The position numbers were made by a program, and so were the translations under genes. Positions 3,566-16,968 of a stretch of DNA of 20,963 bases are shown piece after piece; the stretch's first letter is position 1; every line of letters begins with the position of its first letter. The notes under the pieces are model-generated. The model saw only the letters and a program-made list of their open reading frames with translations. It did no database searches and was not told the origin of the DNA. Source of the stretch: a virus; the IMG/VR virus record IMGVR_UViG_3300048592_000367, positions 1 to 20,963 of that record; one strand, given 5' to 3'.

Positions 3566-3593
3566 TGTTTGATTTTGTATTTGCACTCAAACA
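3566..3593 (+). promoter_or_regulatory. Inverted repeat upstream of the actin-like gene
   Basis: TGTTTGA at 3566-3572 and TCAAACA at 3587-3593 form a perfect 7-bp inverted repeat with a 14-nt centre. It sits in the 51-bp AT-rich gap before the ParM-like start, the first gap in an otherwise overlapping gene run. It could be an operator or part of a centromere for the adjacent RHH-like protein. A convincing -35/-10 pair was not found. Confidence 0.4.
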
Positions 3594-3610
3594 AAGAAGG
3601 AGATGACAGC

Positions 3611-4591
3611 ATGAACAACGTAATCGGTCTGGATCTCGGCATGGGCGCCACGAAGCTGTGGAGCGCCGCCGGCGGCAAAACGATTTTGTCGCAGGTCGCC
3701 ATGCCGACCCGCGAAGACATCGACCTGAAGGCGCTCGGCATGAGCGCGAAGCGCAAGCCGACGGTGATCCTGAACGGCATGGGCCGGCTGCTGGTGGGTG
3801 AGGGCGCGCACGACGCCGGCACGCCGATCGAGCGCCTCGACTATGAGCGCCTCACCGGAAGCCCGGAAATGAAAGCGCTGGTGTATGCCGCGCTGGCCAC
3901 CCAGGACACGAGTGAAGACAACCCCATCGCGCTCATGGTCGGCCTGCCGCTCGGCCTGGCCGCCGGCGACGAGTCGAAGCGCCGCATCGATGCCGTGAAG
4001 GCCTGGCTCACCGGCGCGCACGTGTGGAAGGCTGACAAGCGCGAGCACGTGGCCGTCGTCGAGCGCGTCGGCTGCGTGTCGCAGGCGCACGCCGCATACC
4101 TCGACTGGCTCCTGAACGACGACGGCAAGCCGATGGGCCGGCCGGTGAAGGGTCGCGAGATCGCGGTGATCAGCGTCGGCTTCAACACCATCGAGATGGT
4201 GGTGCTTCGAGACAACCAGGCCGTGAGCCGCTTCGTCGCCGGCGAGAAGCTGGGCGTGCGGCGCTTCCTGGAGCTAGTGAACGAAGGCCGGCGCGGACTC
4301 TTCTCACTCGGCGAGCTCGACATCCGCCTGCGCAGCGGTGGGCTGAACGAGCCAGCGGCGCAAGGGAAGTGGGCCGCCCAGGTGCATGGCCACATCGAGC
4401 GCACCTGGTCGGATGCCGCAGGCCGCTTCGATCACGTCATCGCCGTCGGCGGCGGCTCGCTGCTGCTGCGCGACGCGCTGGTGGATCTGTTCGGCAATCG
4501 GTTGATCGAGAGCGACGAGCCGGTGCTCAGTGTCGCGCGCGGCCTCTACAAGTTCGGCCTGATGCAGGCGGCAAAGGAGGCGGCGAAGTAA
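3611..4591 (+). CDS. ParM/StbA-type actin-like segregation ATPase
   Basis: 326 residues from ATG 3611, chosen because AAGGAG (3597-3602) lies eight bases upstream and the protein then begins directly with the actin phosphate-1 loop; a longer start at 3569 adds an untypical leader. Actin-fold marks: phosphate-1 GLDLGMGATK (5-14), a nucleotide-fold strand IALMVGLPLG (106-115), phosphate-2-like VISVGFNTIE (186-195), adenosine-site VGGGSLLL (279-286) and a C-terminal SVARGLYKFG (307-316) typical of plasmid and phage ParM relatives. These proteins polymerise with ATP and push or position DNA bound by a small adaptor. The following 72-residue RHH-like gene overlaps its stop by one base and is the obvious partner. 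Phosphate-2 has Gly-Phe-Asn rather than the usual Asp-x-Gly, so ATPase strength is uncertain. Confidence 0.88.
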   Translation: MNNVIGLDLGMGATKLWSAAGGKTILSQVAMPTREDIDLKALGMSAKRKPTVILNGMGRLLVGEGAHDAGTPIERLDYERLTGSPEMKALVYAALATQDTSEDNPIALMVGLPLGLAAGDESKRRIDAVKAWLTGAHVWKADKREHVAVVERVGCVSQAHAAYLDWLLNDDGKPMGRPVKGREIAVISVGFNTIEMVVLRDNQAVSRFVAGEKLGVRRFLELVNEGRRGLFSLGELDIRLRSGGLNEPAAQGKWAAQVHGHIERTWSDAAGRFDHVIAVGGGSLLLRDALVDLFGNRLIESDEPVLSVARGLYKFGLMQAAKEAAK

Positions 4592-6767: not shown

Positions 6768-7495
6768 TCGACGGGCAGGCGAAAGCAAAAGGCGAGGGCG
6801 TGCAGATCGAGCAGCAGGCCGGCTGGCTGATGGCGCTCCTGCGCGATGCGCCTCGCGTGCTCGGCTCGCTGTTCGGCCTCATCCTGGGCGCCGGCCTGCT
6901 GACCCGCCTGTTCATCGGCGAATTCGTCGCCGATTACAAGCTGGCCTTGCTGCTGACAGTCGGCCTGTGCGGCCTCGGCCTGGCTGTGCCCTTCGGTGTG
7001 ATGGGCCTCATCTGGATGATCCGGGAAACGAGCAAGGCATCGGTGGCCGGCGTGTCGCAACAGATGACTGAGATGGCCGGGCTGGTGCGTGAAAGCATCG
7101 GCCAGACGAATGCAGTCACGAACACGCTCGTTCAGATCACTGGCGCTTACATGGGCAAGGCCGGCGCATCGACCGTGATTCAACAGTTGCCGGCGGCGGA
7201 TGGATACACCGTCAAGAAGCTCGCGAAGGCCGATCTGATCACGACAGACAACGGCGAGATGCTCGCCCGCGACAAGCTCATCCAGATGGCGGAGACGATC
7301 TACGCACGGATGTATGCGCAGCGGATCGAACCCACGCAGGAGAACGTGCGCAAGATCTGCGGCATCACGTCGAACGGGCACATCACGAAGGCGCTCGATG
7401 TGCTGGCGGGGTGGGGAGTATGCACGCCGAAGACACCAGGGAAGGAAAGGGAGTGGCTTTACAAGGAGAGTGACAGGGATGATTCCGAGGCCTGA
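6755..7495 (+). CDS. Membrane-anchored protein with C-terminal winged-helix-like domain
   Basis: 246 residues; ATG 6755 with GGAGGA at 6742-6747, overlapping the previous gene. Two hydrophobic segments at about 35-54 and 62-89 form a membrane hairpin, leaving both ends on the same side. Residues 95-135 are a polar helical segment (SQQMTEMAGLVRESIGQTNA) that may form a coiled coil. Residues 170-237 look like a winged helix: helices (DKLIQMAETIYARMYAQR; TQENVRKICGI), a recognition-type helix (GHITKALDVLAGWG) and a basic wing (TPKTPGKEREWLY). A cytoplasmic DNA-binding domain tethered to the membrane is the simplest reading, as in one-component membrane regulators or DNA-anchoring proteins. No family is recognised. 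Confidence 0.75.
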   Translation: MAEVIDGQAKAKGEGVQIEQQAGWLMALLRDAPRVLGSLFGLILGAGLLTRLFIGEFVADYKLALLLTVGLCGLGLAVPFGVMGLIWMIRETSKASVAGVSQQMTEMAGLVRESIGQTNAVTNTLVQITGAYMGKAGASTVIQQLPAADGYTVKKLAKADLITTDNGEMLARDKLIQMAETIYARMYAQRIEPTQENVRKICGITSNGHITKALDVLAGWGVCTPKTPGKEREWLYKESDRDDSEA

Positions 7496-7889
7496 TCACA
7501 TCCGCGTGATGGAGCGCCCGCGCACGCGTGAAGAGAATCTCTCCCCCACCGCCGGCAAGGGAGACACCCCGCCGAAAAACCAGAACCTACCCCAGGGTGG
7601 GCAGGTGGGTAGGTGGGTGGGTGGGTCTCATGTCTTAGGAATGCGGACATTGGCGGACATTGGCGGACATTGGCGGAATATTGCGGACGTGAACACTTAC
7701 ACGCCTAAAGAGTTTGCAGGACAGATAAAGCGAACAACCCGCACGCTGCGGAGATGGGCTGAGCAGGGGTTGCTTGTCCCTGCACGCACACCATCAGGCC
7801 GGCCCATTTATACCGATGAACATCTTCGTATTGCGCTCGATATGGATGCACCGGAGCCGAAGGCTAAAACACCGAAGGGGAAATCATGA
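7479..7889 (+). CDS. MerR-type helix-turn-helix protein
   Basis: 136 residues if started at ATG 7479, which has AAGGAG at 7463-7468 and overlaps the preceding gene by 17 bases. Residues 72-121 are a MerR/excisionase-like HTH with wing (TYTPKEFAGQIKRTTRTLRR, WAEQGLL, then SGRPIYTDEHLRIAL), the type found in MerR regulators and in the N-terminal domain of IS607-type recombinases. No effector or resolvase domain follows, only a basic tail (PKAKTPKGKS). Residues 20-70 are low-complexity and are encoded by a G-run tract and a 10-bp tandem repeat, so a shorter protein from ATG 7641 or GTG 7689 is possible. It probably binds DNA as an excisionase or local repressor. Its stop overlaps the HNH gene start. 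Confidence 0.72.
   Translation: MIPRPDHIRVMERPRTREENLSPTAGKGDTPPKNQNLPQGGQVGRWVGGSHVLGMRTLADIGGHWRNIADVNTYTPKEFAGQIKRTTRTLRRWAEQGLLVPARTPSGRPIYTDEHLRIALDMDAPEPKAKTPKGKS
7595..7625 (+). repeat. G-run tract, potential G-quadruplex
   Basis: Six GGG runs begin at 7595, 7599, 7607, 7615, 7619 and 7623, separated by 1 to 5 bases. Four or more such runs at this spacing fit the usual G-quadruplex pattern on the plus strand. The tract lies in the low-complexity 5' part of the MerR-like gene, just before a 10-bp tandem repeat. Confidence 0.7.
7643..7692 (+). repeat. 10-bp tandem repeat array (GCGGACATTG)
   Basis: GCGGACATTG occurs three times in exact tandem (7643-7672), followed by two degenerate units, GCGGAATATT (7673-7682) and GCGGACGTGA (7683-7692). 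A 10-bp period is close to one helical turn and is not a multiple of three, so each copy is read in a different frame if translated. This points to a protein-binding array (operator or iteron-like) rather than selection on protein sequence. Confidence 0.8.
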
Positions 7890-11120: not shown

Positions 11121-12089
11121 ATGAACCAATCGCTTATAACCACCAACCCCGCCGGCGAGTTGGACGCAATCACCGTATCCGACTCAACGGCACACTACAT
11201 TCGCGCATCGCGTGCATACAACACCCGACGCGCATATCAAGCTGACCTGCGCGACTTCCGCGAGTGGTGCGAGGACAACAACCACTCGCACTTCCCAGCA
11301 GCGCCGAAGACAGTTGCAGATTACCTCTCATACCTGGCTGATAAGGGCATGAAGGTGTCAACCATCGAGCGCCGCAACGTGGCCATCAGTGAGGCGCACA
11401 AGTCCGCCGGCGTGCCGAATCCAACCGCGACAGAGATCGTGCGCAAGGCGATGAGCGGCATTCGACGGGAGCACGGCTCGCCCAGGCGCAAGGTGCGAGC
11501 CGTGACCGTGCGTGAGCTGCGCGCCATGTGCACGGCCATGCCCGACACGCTCGCCGGCTATCGAGATCGCGCGATCCTGTGCGTGCAGTTTGCCGGCGCC
11601 ATGCGCAGGTCTGAACTGTCAAGCCTTCTCGTCGAGGATGTGGAGTGGGGCGTGGATGAGGTGGCGCTGACCATCCGGCGCTCGAAGACCGACCAGGCCG
11701 GCGAAGGCATGCGCAAGGTGCTGCCAGCGTCCAGCGATCTGACGATCTGCCCCGTGCGCTTGCTCCGGCGCTGGCTGACCACCGCCGGCATTGACGACGG
11801 CGCGGTGTTTCGCGGGGTTGATCAGCATGGCCATGTCGGTGCCGGCGCGCTGACGCCTGGCAACATTGCGCTGGTCTGGAAGCGCGCCGCCGAGCGGGTG
11901 GGGATTGCAGCAGATCGCGTCAGTGGCCACAGCGCGCGGCGCGGCTTCATCACGGAGGCATTCAAGGCTGAGGTGGCCGAGGCCGACATTCAGCAAGTCA
12001 CCGGGCACAAGTCGATTGCTGTTTTGCGCGACTACCGCGCCGACGCCGGCCAGGCACAGCGCAAAGCCGTGAACAAGGTGATGGGATAG
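11121..12089 (+). CDS. Tyrosine recombinase/integrase
   Basis: 322 residues. Residues 20-115 are a SAM-like core-binding domain (TRRAYQADLRDFREWC; ADYLSYLADKG; SGIRREHGSPRRK). Residues 126-322 are the catalytic domain: R162 in GAMRRSEL, K189 in RRSKTDQ, H270-x-x-R273 in GHSARRGF, H296 in VTGHKS and nucleophile Y305 in LRDYRAD. All catalytic residues are present, so it should be active. No arm-binding N-terminal domain is obvious, which fits simple Xer-like integrases acting on short sites. It follows an 85-bp gap with a regulatory inverted repeat and is followed directly by a perfect 15-bp inverted repeat that could be its core site or terminator. It may drive integration of the element or resolve dimers. 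Confidence 0.92.
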   Translation: MNQSLITTNPAGELDAITVSDSTAHYIRASRAYNTRRAYQADLRDFREWCEDNNHSHFPAAPKTVADYLSYLADKGMKVSTIERRNVAISEAHKSAGVPNPTATEIVRKAMSGIRREHGSPRRKVRAVTVRELRAMCTAMPDTLAGYRDRAILCVQFAGAMRRSELSSLLVEDVEWGVDEVALTIRRSKTDQAGEGMRKVLPASSDLTICPVRLLRRWLTTAGIDDGAVFRGVDQHGHVGAGALTPGNIALVWKRAAERVGIAADRVSGHSARRGFITEAFKAEVAEADIQQVTGHKSIAVLRDYRADAGQAQRKAVNKVMG

Positions 12090-12100
12090 CGACTTTTGGT

Positions 12101-12137
12101 TGTCGTGATTGATAACCTTTTATTATCAATCACGACA
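12101..12137. repeat. Perfect 15-bp inverted repeat, 7-nt centre (candidate recombination core or terminator)
   Basis: Bases 12101-12115 and 12123-12137 are exact reverse complements around the 7-nt centre CCTTTTA. It starts 11 bases after the tyrosine recombinase stop. Arm plus 6-8 nt spacer geometry is that of tyrosine recombinase core sites. An alternative is an intrinsic terminator: a T5 run lies at about 12149, 11 bases past the stem, too far for a standard one, and the stem is AT-rich. Confidence 0.7.
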
Positions 12138-12165: not shown

Positions 12166-12657
12166 ATGACAACAATACCAATGACCAAGGGGTTTGTGTG
12201 CGAGGTTGACGAGCTGGATGCAGATCTGGCTAACCTCAATTGGACAACGCACACCGATGGCTATGCCCAGCGTGCAACACCGCGATCAGAACGCGTCGAC
12301 GGGAAGCAAGGCGTAATTTTGATGCATCGTGTAATTGTCGAGCGCATGTTCGGCTCCATCCCTAAAGGGATGCAGGTTGATCACATTGATGGCAACAAGC
12401 GAAACAACAGGCGCGCCAACCTTCGGCTTGTCTCTTCCTCGCAGAACCGAAGGAACACAGGCCCGCGCGCCGGCAAGAAGTCGTCATTCAAAGGCGTTTA
12501 CTGGAACAATAAATCTGGCAAGTGGCAGGTGCTGTGTTGGATAAATGGCAAAACTCGTCATGTTGGGATGTATGAAGACGAGATTGAAGCAGCGAGGACA
12601 TACAACGCTTTTGTTGTTGCGAACGGCCTCAACACCGCATGGTTAAACAAAGTGTAA
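12166..12657 (+). CDS. HNH homing-type endonuclease with AP2 domain
   Basis: 163 residues. Residues 50-100 are the HNH nuclease (LMHRVIVERMFG, then catalytic D72-H73 in VDHIDGNKRNN, N85 in RRANLRLVSSSQN). Residues 107-150 form an AP2-type DNA-binding domain (SFKGVYWNNKSGKW; GMYEDEIEAARTYNAF). This domain pair is standard for free-standing phage homing endonucleases, which cut intron- or gene-less alleles. Base composition is AT-richer than its neighbours and only one GCCGGC is seen. The start ATG 12166 has no clear ribosome binding site; ATG 12181 is an alternative. It lies between the two recombinases, directly after the 15-bp inverted repeat. The domain call is firm. Confidence 0.88.
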   Translation: MTTIPMTKGFVCEVDELDADLANLNWTTHTDGYAQRATPRSERVDGKQGVILMHRVIVERMFGSIPKGMQVDHIDGNKRNNRRANLRLVSSSQNRRNTGPRAGKKSSFKGVYWNNKSGKWQVLCWINGKTRHVGMYEDEIEAARTYNAFVVANGLNTAWLNKV

Positions 12658-13300: not shown

Positions 13301-13479
13301 CCCGCAAACTCCCCCACCCTCGCCGGCCCGGCCGGCCCAAGCGCGCGCCCAACGTGTCGCGACTGCCCGTGGTCGCGCGCAAGCGCCTCGACACCTACCC
13401 CCCACGCGTGCAACGCCTTCTGCGTGCCATTGCCGCGGCTGAATCCCAGCAGCTGGATCCACAGCCAGAAACCGCATGA
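13297..13479 (+). CDS. Small basic AT-hook-like protein
   Basis: 60 residues; ATG 13297 overlaps the previous stop and its own stop overlaps the serine recombinase ATG (ATGA at 13476). The N-terminus PHPRRPGRPKRAP contains an AT-hook-like Gly-Arg-Pro core flanked by Arg and Lys, which binds the minor groove in characterised proteins. A basic helix follows (PPRVQRLLRAIAAAESQQ). Serine recombinases of phages need a small accessory protein to excise; position and coupling make this a candidate for such a factor or a translation leader, but no homology is claimed. Confidence 0.62.
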   Translation: MTRKLPHPRRPGRPKRAPNVSRLPVVARKRLDTYPPRVQRLLRAIAAAESQQLDPQPETA

Positions 13480-15020
13480 CGCGCATTGCCCTCTACCTGC
13501 GCTACAGCAGCGAAGAGCAATCCGAGGGCTGGAGCCTGGAAGCGCAGGAACGCGGCTGCCGGTCGTTCGTCGACAGCAAGCCCGGCTGGGCCATCACCGC
13601 GATCTACACCGACGAGGCGCGCAGCGGCAAGTCGACCGACCGGCCAGGCTTTCAGGACATGCTCAAAGCCGCGCACGCCGGCGAATTCGACGCGCTGGTG
13701 TGCCACAAGCTCGACCGCTTCAGCCGCAACCTGGTCGACGTGCTGCTCACGCTGGACGACCTGCAAAAACACGATGTGGCGTTTGCCAGCGCCACGGAGC
13801 CGATCGATTTCACCACGCCGCTGGGCAAGGTCGTCCTGATCATCCTGGCGTTCTTCGCCGAGTGGTATCTGCAAAACCTCAGCGCAGAAACGACAAAGGG
13901 CAAGCGCGAGCGCTTTCAGGCCGGCCTGTGGAACGGCGACCTGCGGTATGGCTACATCCGCAGCGACGACGGCAAGCCCCAGCTCGTGGACGACTCGCGC
14001 CACGTGCTCACGGCATATCAGCTCTGCGCCGCCGGCAAGAGCGACCAGCAGGTAGCCGACGCCATGAACACCGACGGCGCGCGCACACTGCGCCTGCGCA
14101 GCAACAGCAAGAAGAAGGCGACCTATGACACGCCGATCGACGAGCGCCGGCCGTGGACGAAAGACAGCGTCGGCGCGCTCTTCACGCCGGAGGCCGCCGC
14201 GTTCTACAGCGGCCACACCACCTACATCGGCGAGGGCGAGCGGAAGAAGCGCAAGCGCGACCGGCGCATGGAGATCCTGCGCGACACCCACCCCGCCGTC
14301 ATCGATGACGAGCTGGCGCGCACGGCGCTGGCTGCCCGCGCGAAACGTCGCAACCCGGGCCGGCTGGCCACGGCGCCGCTGAAGCACGACTACATATTCG
14401 GCGAGCGCGTGGCCGTGTGCAGCGTGTGCGGCAAGCCTCTGCGCGCCTGGCAAAGCACCACCGGCAAGCGCGCCTACTATCGCTGCGCGGCCGCCCAGCG
14501 CGGCGAGGCCTGCGCGGCGCCGGCGCGCCCTGTGGCCGAAGACGTGCTCGTCGAGGCGATGAACGATTACATCGCCGATCTGGAATTGCCCGACGACTGG
14601 CGCGAGGCGATCCGTGAGGTGAATGCCCAGGACGATGCGCGGGCGCAAGCGCTCGAAGCGCGGGAGAGGCTGGCTGCCCAGCTCAGGCGGATCAACTACC
14701 AGATCAACGCCGGCATGGTGCTCGACGATGATCTGCCGGCCATGGAGCGACGCGCTCGGGCGCTGAAAGAGCAGGTCGAGAATATGGTGATCCCTGCGCC
14801 GGCGCGGACCGTGGAGGCCGGCGAGCGCATGGTGCGCTTGCGGCAGATCTGGCCGACAGCCAGCAAATACATCCGGCGCGAGATCGTGCAGGCGATCTGC
14901 GCAGCAGTCGTGGTGGACACCGAGCGCAGGAGAATCGCCGGCATCAAGCCCCATCCTGAGTTTGTGCTGCTCTTCGAACGCACACGCCTGACCCGCGATG
15001 GCGACGTGTGGCGCATATGA
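13476..15020 (+). CDS. Large serine recombinase
   Basis: 514 residues. Residues 1-145 are the resolvase catalytic domain: YLRYS with nucleophile S11, LEAQ, TDEARSGKSTDRPGF and LDRFSRNLVD (R81, R84). Residues 146-300 are the recombinase DNA-binding domain (GLWNGDLRYGYIRSDDGKP; SDQQVADAMNTDG; WTKDSVGALFTPEAAAF). Residues 310-350 are a zinc ribbon (C315, C318, C337, C346) and residues 375-445 contain a coiled coil, as in phage integrases that cut attP and attB through a 2-bp overlap. All catalytic residues seem present and length is typical, so it should be active. It is translationally coupled to the AT-hook-like gene and followed by a terminator and a perfect 50-bp inverted repeat that may be its own attachment site. 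Confidence 0.95.
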   Translation: MTRIALYLRYSSEEQSEGWSLEAQERGCRSFVDSKPGWAITAIYTDEARSGKSTDRPGFQDMLKAAHAGEFDALVCHKLDRFSRNLVDVLLTLDDLQKHDVAFASATEPIDFTTPLGKVVLIILAFFAEWYLQNLSAETTKGKRERFQAGLWNGDLRYGYIRSDDGKPQLVDDSRHVLTAYQLCAAGKSDQQVADAMNTDGARTLRLRSNSKKKATYDTPIDERRPWTKDSVGALFTPEAAAFYSGHTTYIGEGERKKRKRDRRMEILRDTHPAVIDDELARTALAARAKRRNPGRLATAPLKHDYIFGERVAVCSVCGKPLRAWQSTTGKRAYYRCAAAQRGEACAAPARPVAEDVLVEAMNDYIADLELPDDWREAIREVNAQDDARAQALEARERLAAQLRRINYQINAGMVLDDDLPAMERRARALKEQVENMVIPAPARTVEAGERMVRLRQIWPTASKYIRREIVQAICAAVVVDTERRRIAGIKPHPEFVLLFERTRLTRDGDVWRI

Positions 15021-15060
15021 CTCGCGCGAACTTGACGCCCGTCGCTTCCGTCTGAGTCAT

Positions 15061-15090
15061 ATGACCACCGAGAGACCGGTGGTCATTTTG
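15061..15090 (+). terminator. Intrinsic terminator after the serine recombinase
   Basis: A perfect 10-bp stem (15061-15070 with 15077-15086) around the 6-nt loop AGAGAC ends in a short T run (TTTT at 15086-15089). It lies 40 bases after the recombinase stop, between the convergent blocks. The left arm also belongs to a 10-bp palindrome, GTCATATGAC (15056-15065). Confidence 0.8.
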
Positions 15091-15100
15091 TATACTGTGC

Positions 15101-15150
15101 ATGCGCCGACGGACGAACCTTAATCCCCCTAGGTTCGTCCGTCGGCGCAT
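15101..15150. repeat. Perfect 20-bp inverted repeat with 10-nt centre (terminator or candidate attP)
   Basis: Bases 15101-15120 and 15131-15150 are exact reverse complements around TAATCCCCCT. The arms are GC-rich, so the RNA hairpin would be extremely stable; on the plus strand TTTCATTT follows. It lies between the serine recombinase and the convergent tail genes. Reading one: a strong terminator separating the blocks. Reading two: the recombinase's attP, since serine integrase sites are about 50 bp, roughly symmetric and beside the integrase gene. Confidence 0.8.
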
Positions 15151-15152
15151 TT

Positions 15153-15168
15153 CATTTCCGCGGAAATG
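15153..15168. repeat. 16-bp perfect palindrome
   Basis: CATTTCCGCGGAAATG is its own reverse complement with no spacer. It lies two bases after the 20-bp inverted repeat and 27 bases before the end of the minus-strand gene cluster. It could bind a dimeric protein; it is too tight to form a useful hairpin. Confidence 0.7.
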
Positions 15169-15194: not shown

Positions 15195-15830
15195 CTACGC
15201 CCCAATTAATCCATGCGTGATGAGGTCATCAATCAGCGCCTTCACGCGCTCTGCAAGTTGCGCCGTCGTCACGCTGCCGGTGGCAAACGTCGTGCGGGTT
15301 GGCGTGCCGGTTGCCGCTGCCCATCCGGTGCGGCGCGACGTGACCACCTGCGTGCCGGCAATGCTTAGGGTGCGAGTCGATGTGAGGTTAAGCCCGCCCG
15401 TCTCAAATCGTCCTATCTCCGTTCCAGCGAGTGTCAGAAAGCGGCTGCTGTCAGACAAGAAGCCGAAATAATCCGCCGCTGAATTGATAAAGCCCATGTA
15501 TTGACTGCCGGCGCTGTTCCCGCCGGCGTAGAGAATGCGCCCCTTAATCGTTGCGTCTTCCACGAAACGGAATTCCGAGTTTTGCCCTGTGCCGGTGGTT
15601 GCCACACGCACCAGCGGCGACGCGCTGCGCACGTCCAGCGCCACAGCCGGCGACAGCCCGACGCCTACCCGCGAGGCTTGAATGTAGCCGTTGGCATCGC
15701 GCCTTACAAGCGTGTTCGCAGTGGATGCCGTGTCATCTGCCGGCTTCTCTTGCTTCTCAAGCGCCGCCACACGTTCACTTAGCGCGTTTAACTGCGCAAG
15801 GATTTGCATCAACAACTCGTTGTTATCCAT
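15195..15830 (-). CDS. Tail fibre-like protein, distal
   Basis: 211 residues from the ATG at 15830, preferred over a longer start because it overlaps the end of the upstream Gp37-like gene by 8 bases, normal for this cluster. The N-terminus is a coiled coil (MDNNELLMQILAQLNALSER, VAALEKQ). It continues with phage-fibre signatures: NTLVRRDANGYIQA, repeated short beta elements (RFLTLAGTEIGRFE; TSTRTLSIAG) and a C-terminal helix (TTAQLAERVKALIDDLITHG). It probably forms a trimeric fibre or appendage at the tail tip that contacts the host surface. It is the last gene of the minus-strand tail operon, 175 bases from the convergent serine recombinase. Confidence 0.75.
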   Translation of the reverse strand: MDNNELLMQILAQLNALSERVAALEKQEKPADDTASTANTLVRRDANGYIQASRVGVGLSPAVALDVRSASPLVRVATTGTGQNSEFRFVEDATIKGRILYAGGNSAGSQYMGFINSAADYFGFLSDSSRFLTLAGTEIGRFETGGLNLTSTRTLSIAGTQVVTSRRTGWAAATGTPTRTTFATGSVTTAQLAERVKALIDDLITHGLIGA

Positions 15831-16968
15831 TCGTCGCCATCTCCACTGTGATGCGTTCATTGCCTGACTGGTCAAACGCCACATTGACCGCGTTGACTTT
15901 CTGCGTGAATGATGAGCCGAGATAACGCGCCGTCACCAAGTCACCGACAAAGTAGTCTTTGCCATAGTAGGCGTTTGGCACTTGCAGCACTTCGTAATTC
16001 AGTGACGCCCGCGCCCGCCGGTCAAACATCGCCTTGTCGCCAATGGCTTGCAGTGCGGCAGTGGTGCTATAGCTGCGCCCGTCAACAAACGCCTCAATGT
16101 CGTTGCTGGATGATTGGTCTGCGCCGTTGCGCGTGACGACCACGCGGCTTGACCCGTCACCCTGCCCCGCGACAATCGCAACCGTTGCCTCACTCTGCCG
16201 GCTGTAGGTGTATTGCGGATTCGCCATATTGCCGCGATCCAGCGAGAAGATAACGGACGCGGTGCGATTCGTGCCGCGCTGACCCGTATACCATCGGAAT
16301 TCAAACGTCGTTGCGGCTGTCTTTATCAGGTCAAAGTCGCCGCCCGCGCCGGCCTTAGCAAGGGCTTGCAGCGTGCCAAGCAGGTTATCCCACGCGCACG
16401 ACCACGATTTACTATTACCCGCTGCGCCGTCGGCTTGATTGCTGATTGTCCAGATGTTTGACAGCTTGCCCGATGTGATGCCATCCCGCACGCGCCCATT
16501 CGCCGCCGTTGCGTTTGAGCCGGCGTTGTATGAAACGAGGGTTTTCATGATCGTCTCACTGGCCGCGCTGGTGAACGTGCTGCGGTTGGCTGTGCCGGCA
16601 TACCACGCGACGTTGCGCCAGCCCAACACCGACATGATGCCAGGACAATCAATTGTCCAGTTGCCCGTCTCGCGTGTGGTGTGCGTCTGCCCGCGAAAGA
16701 TGCCTACGAAGTCACGATACCAACTCACGCTCAGGTCGGTGTTGCGCCGGTAAACCTCAACCTGTCCATTTGTGGGCAACAGTGAACGCGCCGGATGGTT
16801 GCCGGCGAAGGTGATCTGCGCGTAGCCCGCTGCGTTCACTTCGTTGCGATATGCAAGCGATGTGAAGCCGGTAGACGATTCGCCGCCATCGCCGCCCATG
16901 CCGCCCGTCACTGTCGCAACGAGTGCGCCGGCGGTGTCAGTCAGGTTGATGTAATACTCTGCGGGCAT
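15823..16968 (-). CDS. Siphovirus Gp37-like tail protein
   Basis: 381 residues. It matches the layout of the siphovirus ReqiPepy6 Gp37-like family: an N-terminal domain linking to the tail (INLTDTAGALVATVTGG; AYRNEVNAAGYAQITFAGN), a central beta domain with VSWYRDFVGIFRGQTHTT and TIDCPGIMSVLGWRNVAWY, and a C-terminal domain including AMFDRRARASLNYEVLQVP, YGKDYFVGDLVTARY and NERITVEMA. Such proteins sit at the tail tip, in the role of tail hub or tail-associated protein, between the distal tail protein and fibres. Start ATG at 16968 lies 6 bases after the preceding stop with a weak GGA site. The gene appears intact. Confidence 0.82.
   Translation of the reverse strand: MPAEYYINLTDTAGALVATVTGGMGGDGGESSTGFTSLAYRNEVNAAGYAQITFAGNHPARSLLPTNGQVEVYRRNTDLSVSWYRDFVGIFRGQTHTTRETGNWTIDCPGIMSVLGWRNVAWYAGTANRSTFTSAASETIMKTLVSYNAGSNATAANGRVRDGITSGKLSNIWTISNQADGAAGNSKSWSCAWDNLLGTLQALAKAGAGGDFDLIKTAATTFEFRWYTGQRGTNRTASVIFSLDRGNMANPQYTYSRQSEATVAIVAGQGDGSSRVVVTRNGADQSSSNDIEAFVDGRSYSTTAALQAIGDKAMFDRRARASLNYEVLQVPNAYYGKDYFVGDLVTARYLGSSFTQKVNAVNVAFDQSGNERITVEMATNG

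Follow-up and report, generated by a model that had tools for sequence, protein, structure and literature searches.

Two adjacent symmetric elements behind a phage serine integrase: a probable strong terminator and a predicted attachment site for tRNA-Asp

The perfect 20-bp inverted repeat found behind the large serine recombinase of this phage (positions 15101-15150) is most likely an unusually strong transcription terminator, and a second, less perfect symmetric element 37 bases upstream of it (15014-15063) is most likely the attP through which the integrase would enter a tRNA-Asp gene of its host. We assign a probability of roughly 0.78 to the combined reading, in which the palindrome terminates plus strand transcription and the integrase acts at 15014-15063 with tRNA-Asp as its target. 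The window analysed is the complete IMG/VR record IMGVR_UViG_3300048592_000367, a sequence of class linear comprising 20,963 bases.

Results

Genes on the plus strand of the window occur in the order ParB, actin-like partition protein, tyrosine recombinase and serine recombinase, and tail genes on the minus strand converge upon them. The serine recombinase (13476-15020, plus strand, 514 aa, stop codon at 15018-15020) is a large integrase matching Pfam Resolvase (1.7e-35), Recombinase (2.3e-8) and Zn_ribbon_recom (1.1e-6), as well as the integrase family phrog_95 (3.7e-94). The first gene of the convergent structural module (15195-15884, minus strand) has a weak tail-needle match (phrog_1219, 2.1e-5), and is succeeded in that module by a minor tail protein (Sipho_Gp37, 2e-32) and additional tail genes. 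Plasmid-like and integrating maintenance functions are mixed in this one phage, which encodes ParB (1392-2378), the actin-like partition protein (3569-4591), the tyrosine recombinase (11121-12089) and the serine integrase. Just 3' of the tyrosine recombinase stop, a perfect 15-bp inverted repeat with a 7-bp asymmetric spacer (12101-12137; TGTCGTGATTGATAA-CCTTTTA-TTATCAATCACGACA) has the look of a lox/dif-type core site for that enzyme; it is kept in the related contig L003 and, with substitutions, in L004. Directly 3' of this lox-like site is an HNH_3 endonuclease gene with a weak AP2 match (12166-12657), possibly a homing endonuclease.

The palindrome has precisely the form given in the original prediction, with arms of 20 nt each (15101-15120 and 15131-15150) that are 100% complementary and 10 nt apart, located some 80 bases past the recombinase stop. 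No other 50-bp stretch of the window is as symmetric, with 20 of 24 non-central positions matching in gap-free scoring from the centre, and a perfect 20-bp repeat so spaced lies far outside chance expectation. The RNA of 15095-15160 folds at -41.2 kcal/mol, compared with -14.7 +/- 2.6 for shuffled sequences (z -10.4). Its 10-nt loop reads TAATCCCCCT, and an interrupted T-rich tail, present on the plus strand only, occupies 15151-15160 (TTCATTTCCG). The bases directly 3' of the stem are C-interrupted in the window (TTCATTTCC), read TTTTGTATTT in G002, and are T-poor in G001 (CTTTACGTG). A short palindrome of 16 bp, CATTTCCGCGGAAATG (15153-15168), lies 3' of the hairpin; it is largely kept in five of the six hairpin contigs (as TATTTCCGCGGAAATG in G002) and missing from G001, though downstream genes differ. 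The hairpin is absent from the terminator scan list because its 10-nt loop exceeds the limit of 8 nt set for that scan. An Rfam search of the hairpin returned nothing credible; two sub-threshold MIR918 matches were read as chance fits, of the kind obtained with any long hairpin. The normal terminator that had been claimed to precede the palindrome (15061-15090, plus strand) is a real hairpin at 15061-15086 followed by a T tail; predicted as an intrinsic terminator from a hairpin scan and fold, it has a 10-bp stem, a 6-nt loop and the tail TTTTGTAT, and its sequence is the same in L003, L005, L006 and L007.

Scans of viral contigs revealed four (L003-L006) whose integrases are 88-100% identical to that of the window, together with L007, which begins within the candidate att site, and L031, in which the hairpin accompanies a different recombinase. 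A common order is found in L003, L005, L006 and L007, consisting of the site with CATATGACTC / GAGTCATATG (its right part only in L007), the first terminator, TATACTG and the hairpin. Beyond this junction no DNA could be aligned between the window and any of these four contigs, and the genes that follow therefore differ. The stems themselves vary, being GCGCCGACGGACGAACC in the window, GCGCCGGCGGTTGAACC in L005, GCGCCGGCGAGCGTGCC in L003, L007 and L031, and AACGCCGGCGTCTG in G002. Two-sided Watson-Crick changes that keep the pairing occur at 7/18 stem pairs in this set of only six hairpin sequences, three of them closely alike, and all non-Watson-Crick pairs but one (T-T) are G-T. The latter are paired in RNA of the plus strand and become A-C mismatches in RNA of the minus strand; together with the T-rich tail, they would fit transcription of the plus strand only.

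Whereas the stems vary, the loop ATCCCCCT is constant in all six contigs, and both the TATACT 5' of the hairpin and the TTTCCGCGGAAATG palindrome 3' of it are mostly kept despite differing neighbour genes. The conserved TATACT was also weighed as part of a plus strand promoter, but the idea was abandoned because neither the window nor G002 nor G007 shows a -35 box at suitable spacing. The integrase of L003 differs from that of the window in its last few residues only, yet a different stem, GCGCCGGCGAGCGTGCCC, lies beside it, which argues that the stem sequence is not what the integrase reads. In L031 the hairpin is directly 3' of another serine recombinase, of 601 aa, and in G002 it is found intact near one end of the record, behind a 74-aa gene, with the integrase at the opposite end. 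The hairpin is therefore a feature of the border between early and late genes, rather than of the integrase.

Other searches added no members to this group. Exact 20-mer arms had no match in viral contigs, an expected result if the stem diverges, and a tail-protein query recovered no relatives. The loop-centred, loose hairpin pattern hit many unrelated viral contigs, with no new hairpin of this type among the matches listed, and folds around ATCCCCCT in the retrieved loci yielded no member other than the six contigs above. A search with the hairpin pattern through 28 genomes from the Roseilinea order produced three matches, none resembling the same hairpin.

The original prediction described attP sites of serine integrases as being about 50 bp, roughly symmetric and close to the integrase, with imperfect arms and an asymmetric 2-bp centre. 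These expectations are sound; the element that displays them, however, is not the palindrome but 15014-15063, the second most symmetric 50-mer, which that prediction overlooked in proposing 15101-15150 as the candidate. This predicted attP is a 50-bp imperfect inverted repeat on the plus strand, CATATGACTCGCGCGAACTTGACG-CC-CGTCGCTTCCGTCTGAGTCATATG, that starts within the last integrase codons, overlaps the stop codon and has its central CC at 15038-15039. Symmetry at 17/24 half-site positions ranks it second of the 20914 50-mers in the window, and the counterparts in L003 and L005 reach 18/24 and 19/24. The right half does not vary among the window, L003, L005/L006 and L007; the left half departs from that of the window by one difference in L003 and several in L005. 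Beginning exactly at the dyad centre is a 14-nt segment, CCCGTCGCTTCCGT (15038-15051), identical to the 3' end of a Candidatus Roseilinea tRNA-Asp(GTC); no other 14-mer of the window matches the tRNA-Asp region. Among 400,000 shuffles of the 50-mer, a 14-nt match to this region was obtained in 24.

Chromosomal relatives of the integrase show a corresponding association with tRNA-Asp. The Candidatus Roseilinea (Chloroflexota) MAG contig JANWYN010000020.1, whose integrase is 51% identical to that of the window, contains the letters of CCCGTCGCTTCCGT twice, reversed; a tRNA-Asp(GTC) gene (14301-14376) has one of these copies as its 3' end. Together the two copies make a 20-nt direct repeat of this tRNA end with a separation of 10.27 kb, and a second serine recombinase, arranged in tandem, lies next to the tRNA. 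More broadly, a tRNA-Asp gene or a copy of its 3' end adjoins integrase relatives (28-51% identity) in 6/11 chromosomal loci; in five of these (L048, L049, L051, L052 and L053) the intact gene is just past the integrase, and in the sixth it is the 3'-end copy. Beyond the integrase of locus L050 there is a comparable element, GACG-CC-CGTCGCGTCCG, and a viral relative with a 37% identical integrase (L039) has CGGAAGTGACGGG at the equivalent place. The exact predicted target, the 20-mer TTCGAATCCCGTCGCTTCCG, is present in 12/28 genomes of the Roseilinea order and in 22/368 other sampled genomes of the class, a distribution compatible with a host from that group. By these sequence affinities, the host of the phage is probably a Chloroflexota bacterium.

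Several observations concern the same or analogous insertion loci. In Candidatus Roseilinea, L044 (G006:C45, 2389-14376) presents tandem serine-recombinase elements at one tRNA-Asp gene, and the ORF of the first recombinase extends across the copy of the tRNA 3' end, as has been reported for dsiB. A 25% identical integrase in L040 (about 7434-7600) ends at a sequence resembling the 3' end of tmRNA (GTGGAGCTGAGGGGAATCGAACCCCTGTCC), and the continuation in L041 has diverged; these two loci probably represent a phage that targets ssrA, once integrated and once free. No tmRNA was detected in the loci by ARAGORN. For the phage itself and its 88-100% relatives, no integrated copy with host DNA attached was seen, the viral records being trimmed or free, and a P' half-site pattern for integrated copies had no match in the 28 genomes of the Roseilinea order. 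The G002 record opens with an ATG and closes precisely on the stop codon of the integrase, which is suggestive of a provirus trimmed to its genes, the integrase being the last of them.

Discussion

The predicted attP suggests a scheme of integration in which an integrase dimer would bind 15014-15063 and pair it with the T-arm and acceptor end of tRNA-Asp in a Chloroflexota host. Cleavage at the central CC, the presumed crossover, and exchange of the halves would then join the body of the host tRNA to the phage right half (CGTCGCTTCCG...), and the tRNA would be restored by the identical 14 nucleotides that this half brings in. The integrase gene would remain at the opposite end of the prophage, its stop codon falling within the left half-site. 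The junctions predicted are ...GAACTTGACGCC continuing into sequence downstream of tRNA-Asp, and tRNA-Asp ...TTCGAATCC continuing into CGTCGCTTCCGTCTGAGTCATATG.

Sites of serine integrases are described as inverted repeats of <=50 bp that have a dinucleotide at their centre and share 2 to 12 bp between partners (PMC4111918). The element at 15014-15063 resembles the attP of large serine integrases of the phiC31/Bxb1 type (PMC4111918) in its length of about 50 bp, its imperfect inverted repeat with an asymmetric central CC, and its position adjoining the integrase. It differs in overlapping the integrase stop codon, and in a right half that contains 14 nt of the tRNA-Asp 3' end rather than 2 to 12 bp (PMC4111918). 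The closest described parallel to the tRNA-Asp system, as judged by analogy with its published description (PMC3146451), appears to be DsiB, the serine recombinase of genomic islands in Dehalococcoides (Chloroflexota), which is ssrA-specific and inserts in the T-loop of tmRNA (PMC3146451). Insertion by DsiB leaves a 20-bp direct repeat, and its att overlaps the 3' end of dsiB (PMC3146451). The predicted tRNA-Asp system and DsiB have in common a serine recombinase of about 500 aa, a Chloroflexota setting, an RNA gene whose T-arm receives the insertion, a direct repeat of the RNA 3' end, and an att site that runs into the 3' end of the integrase gene (PMC3146451). In contrast, DsiB targets tmRNA rather than tRNA-Asp, and is found in islands with a second, small recombinase, DsiA, rather than in a tailed phage.

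The original prediction left the palindrome as either an attachment site or a super-strong terminator, and proposed comparison of the locus with relatives. Its length of about 50 bp, its symmetry and its position adjoining the integrase, along with a conserved outer block, GCGCCG(A/G)CG, could be taken to mark an attP or accessory binding site of the serine recombinase, but we consider such a role highly improbable. Despite a near-identical integrase, several of 18 arm positions have changed, the hairpin also adjoins another recombinase in L031 and a non-recombinase gene in G002, and it is intact in the latter, a provirus by appearance. Moreover, no match of more than 6 nt links it to the target region at tRNA-Asp, and a better site exists 37 bp upstream. 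The comparison with relatives thus told against the first of the original options, through the altered stem of L003 and the other neighbours in L031 and G002, and in favor of the second, through compensated stems and a hairpin independent of the adjoining gene.

The simplest function for 15101-15150 is accordingly that of the second of two tandem terminators on the plus strand, placed after 15061-15090, a prediction drawn from its fold, compensated stems and a loop kept in five relatives; as its T-rich tail is interrupted, we infer the strength of termination. Acting together, the two hairpins would stop early and integrase transcription before it enters the convergent minus strand structural genes. 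As in tandem Rho-independent terminators between convergent phage operons, there is a GC-rich stem, a T-rich tail on the strand that encodes the upstream gene, and a position between the last early gene and the convergent structural genes; the hairpin described here differs in its unusually long, perfect 20-bp stem, its 10-nt loop with a conserved C5 run, and its interrupted T tail. What fits a plain terminator poorly is that the loop ATCCCCCT is kept while the stem varies, a constancy that termination does not need. One might suppose, as a result, a structured element, of RNA or of single-stranded DNA, with a loop that is recognised by a protein or another RNA, with termination secondary, serving for example in processing or protection of transcript ends or in regulation of the convergent late genes. 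The compensated changes in the stems, and the flanking TATACT and TTTCCGCGGAAATG palindrome mostly kept beside differing genes, would be consistent with this. However, the sequences are few and related, such that the loop may have had little time to change; there is no credible Rfam match, and the loop-centred scan gave no further such hairpin among the matches listed. We therefore view this alternative as unlikely, and find somewhat more doubtful a specific phage RNA element that, through a recognised loop ATCCCCCT, would control the convergent early/late transcription junction and survive integrase swaps. Recent common descent of six sequences, three of them nearly alike, may account for both the constant loop and the downstream palindrome CATTTCCGCGGAAATG. 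Quite improbable is the notion that the hairpin unit is mainly a recombination joint, kept as a shared homologous patch for swapping integrase and tail modules. A unit of about 85 bp is indeed common to contigs that differ upstream (two recombinases and the 74-aa gene) and downstream; yet homologous exchange favors identity, while the stem diverges with compensation, and terminators naturally occupy such borders.

With the palindrome read as a terminator, the likely attachment site can be assigned between two adjacent symmetric elements, and a specific attP/attB pair, involving tRNA-Asp, can be predicted for the serine integrase of phages whose hosts are uncultured bacteria, probably Chloroflexota. 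Enzymes of this kind that use and restore a tRNA gene in this manner would resemble DsiB, and could become integration tools in a phylum for which few genetic tools exist.
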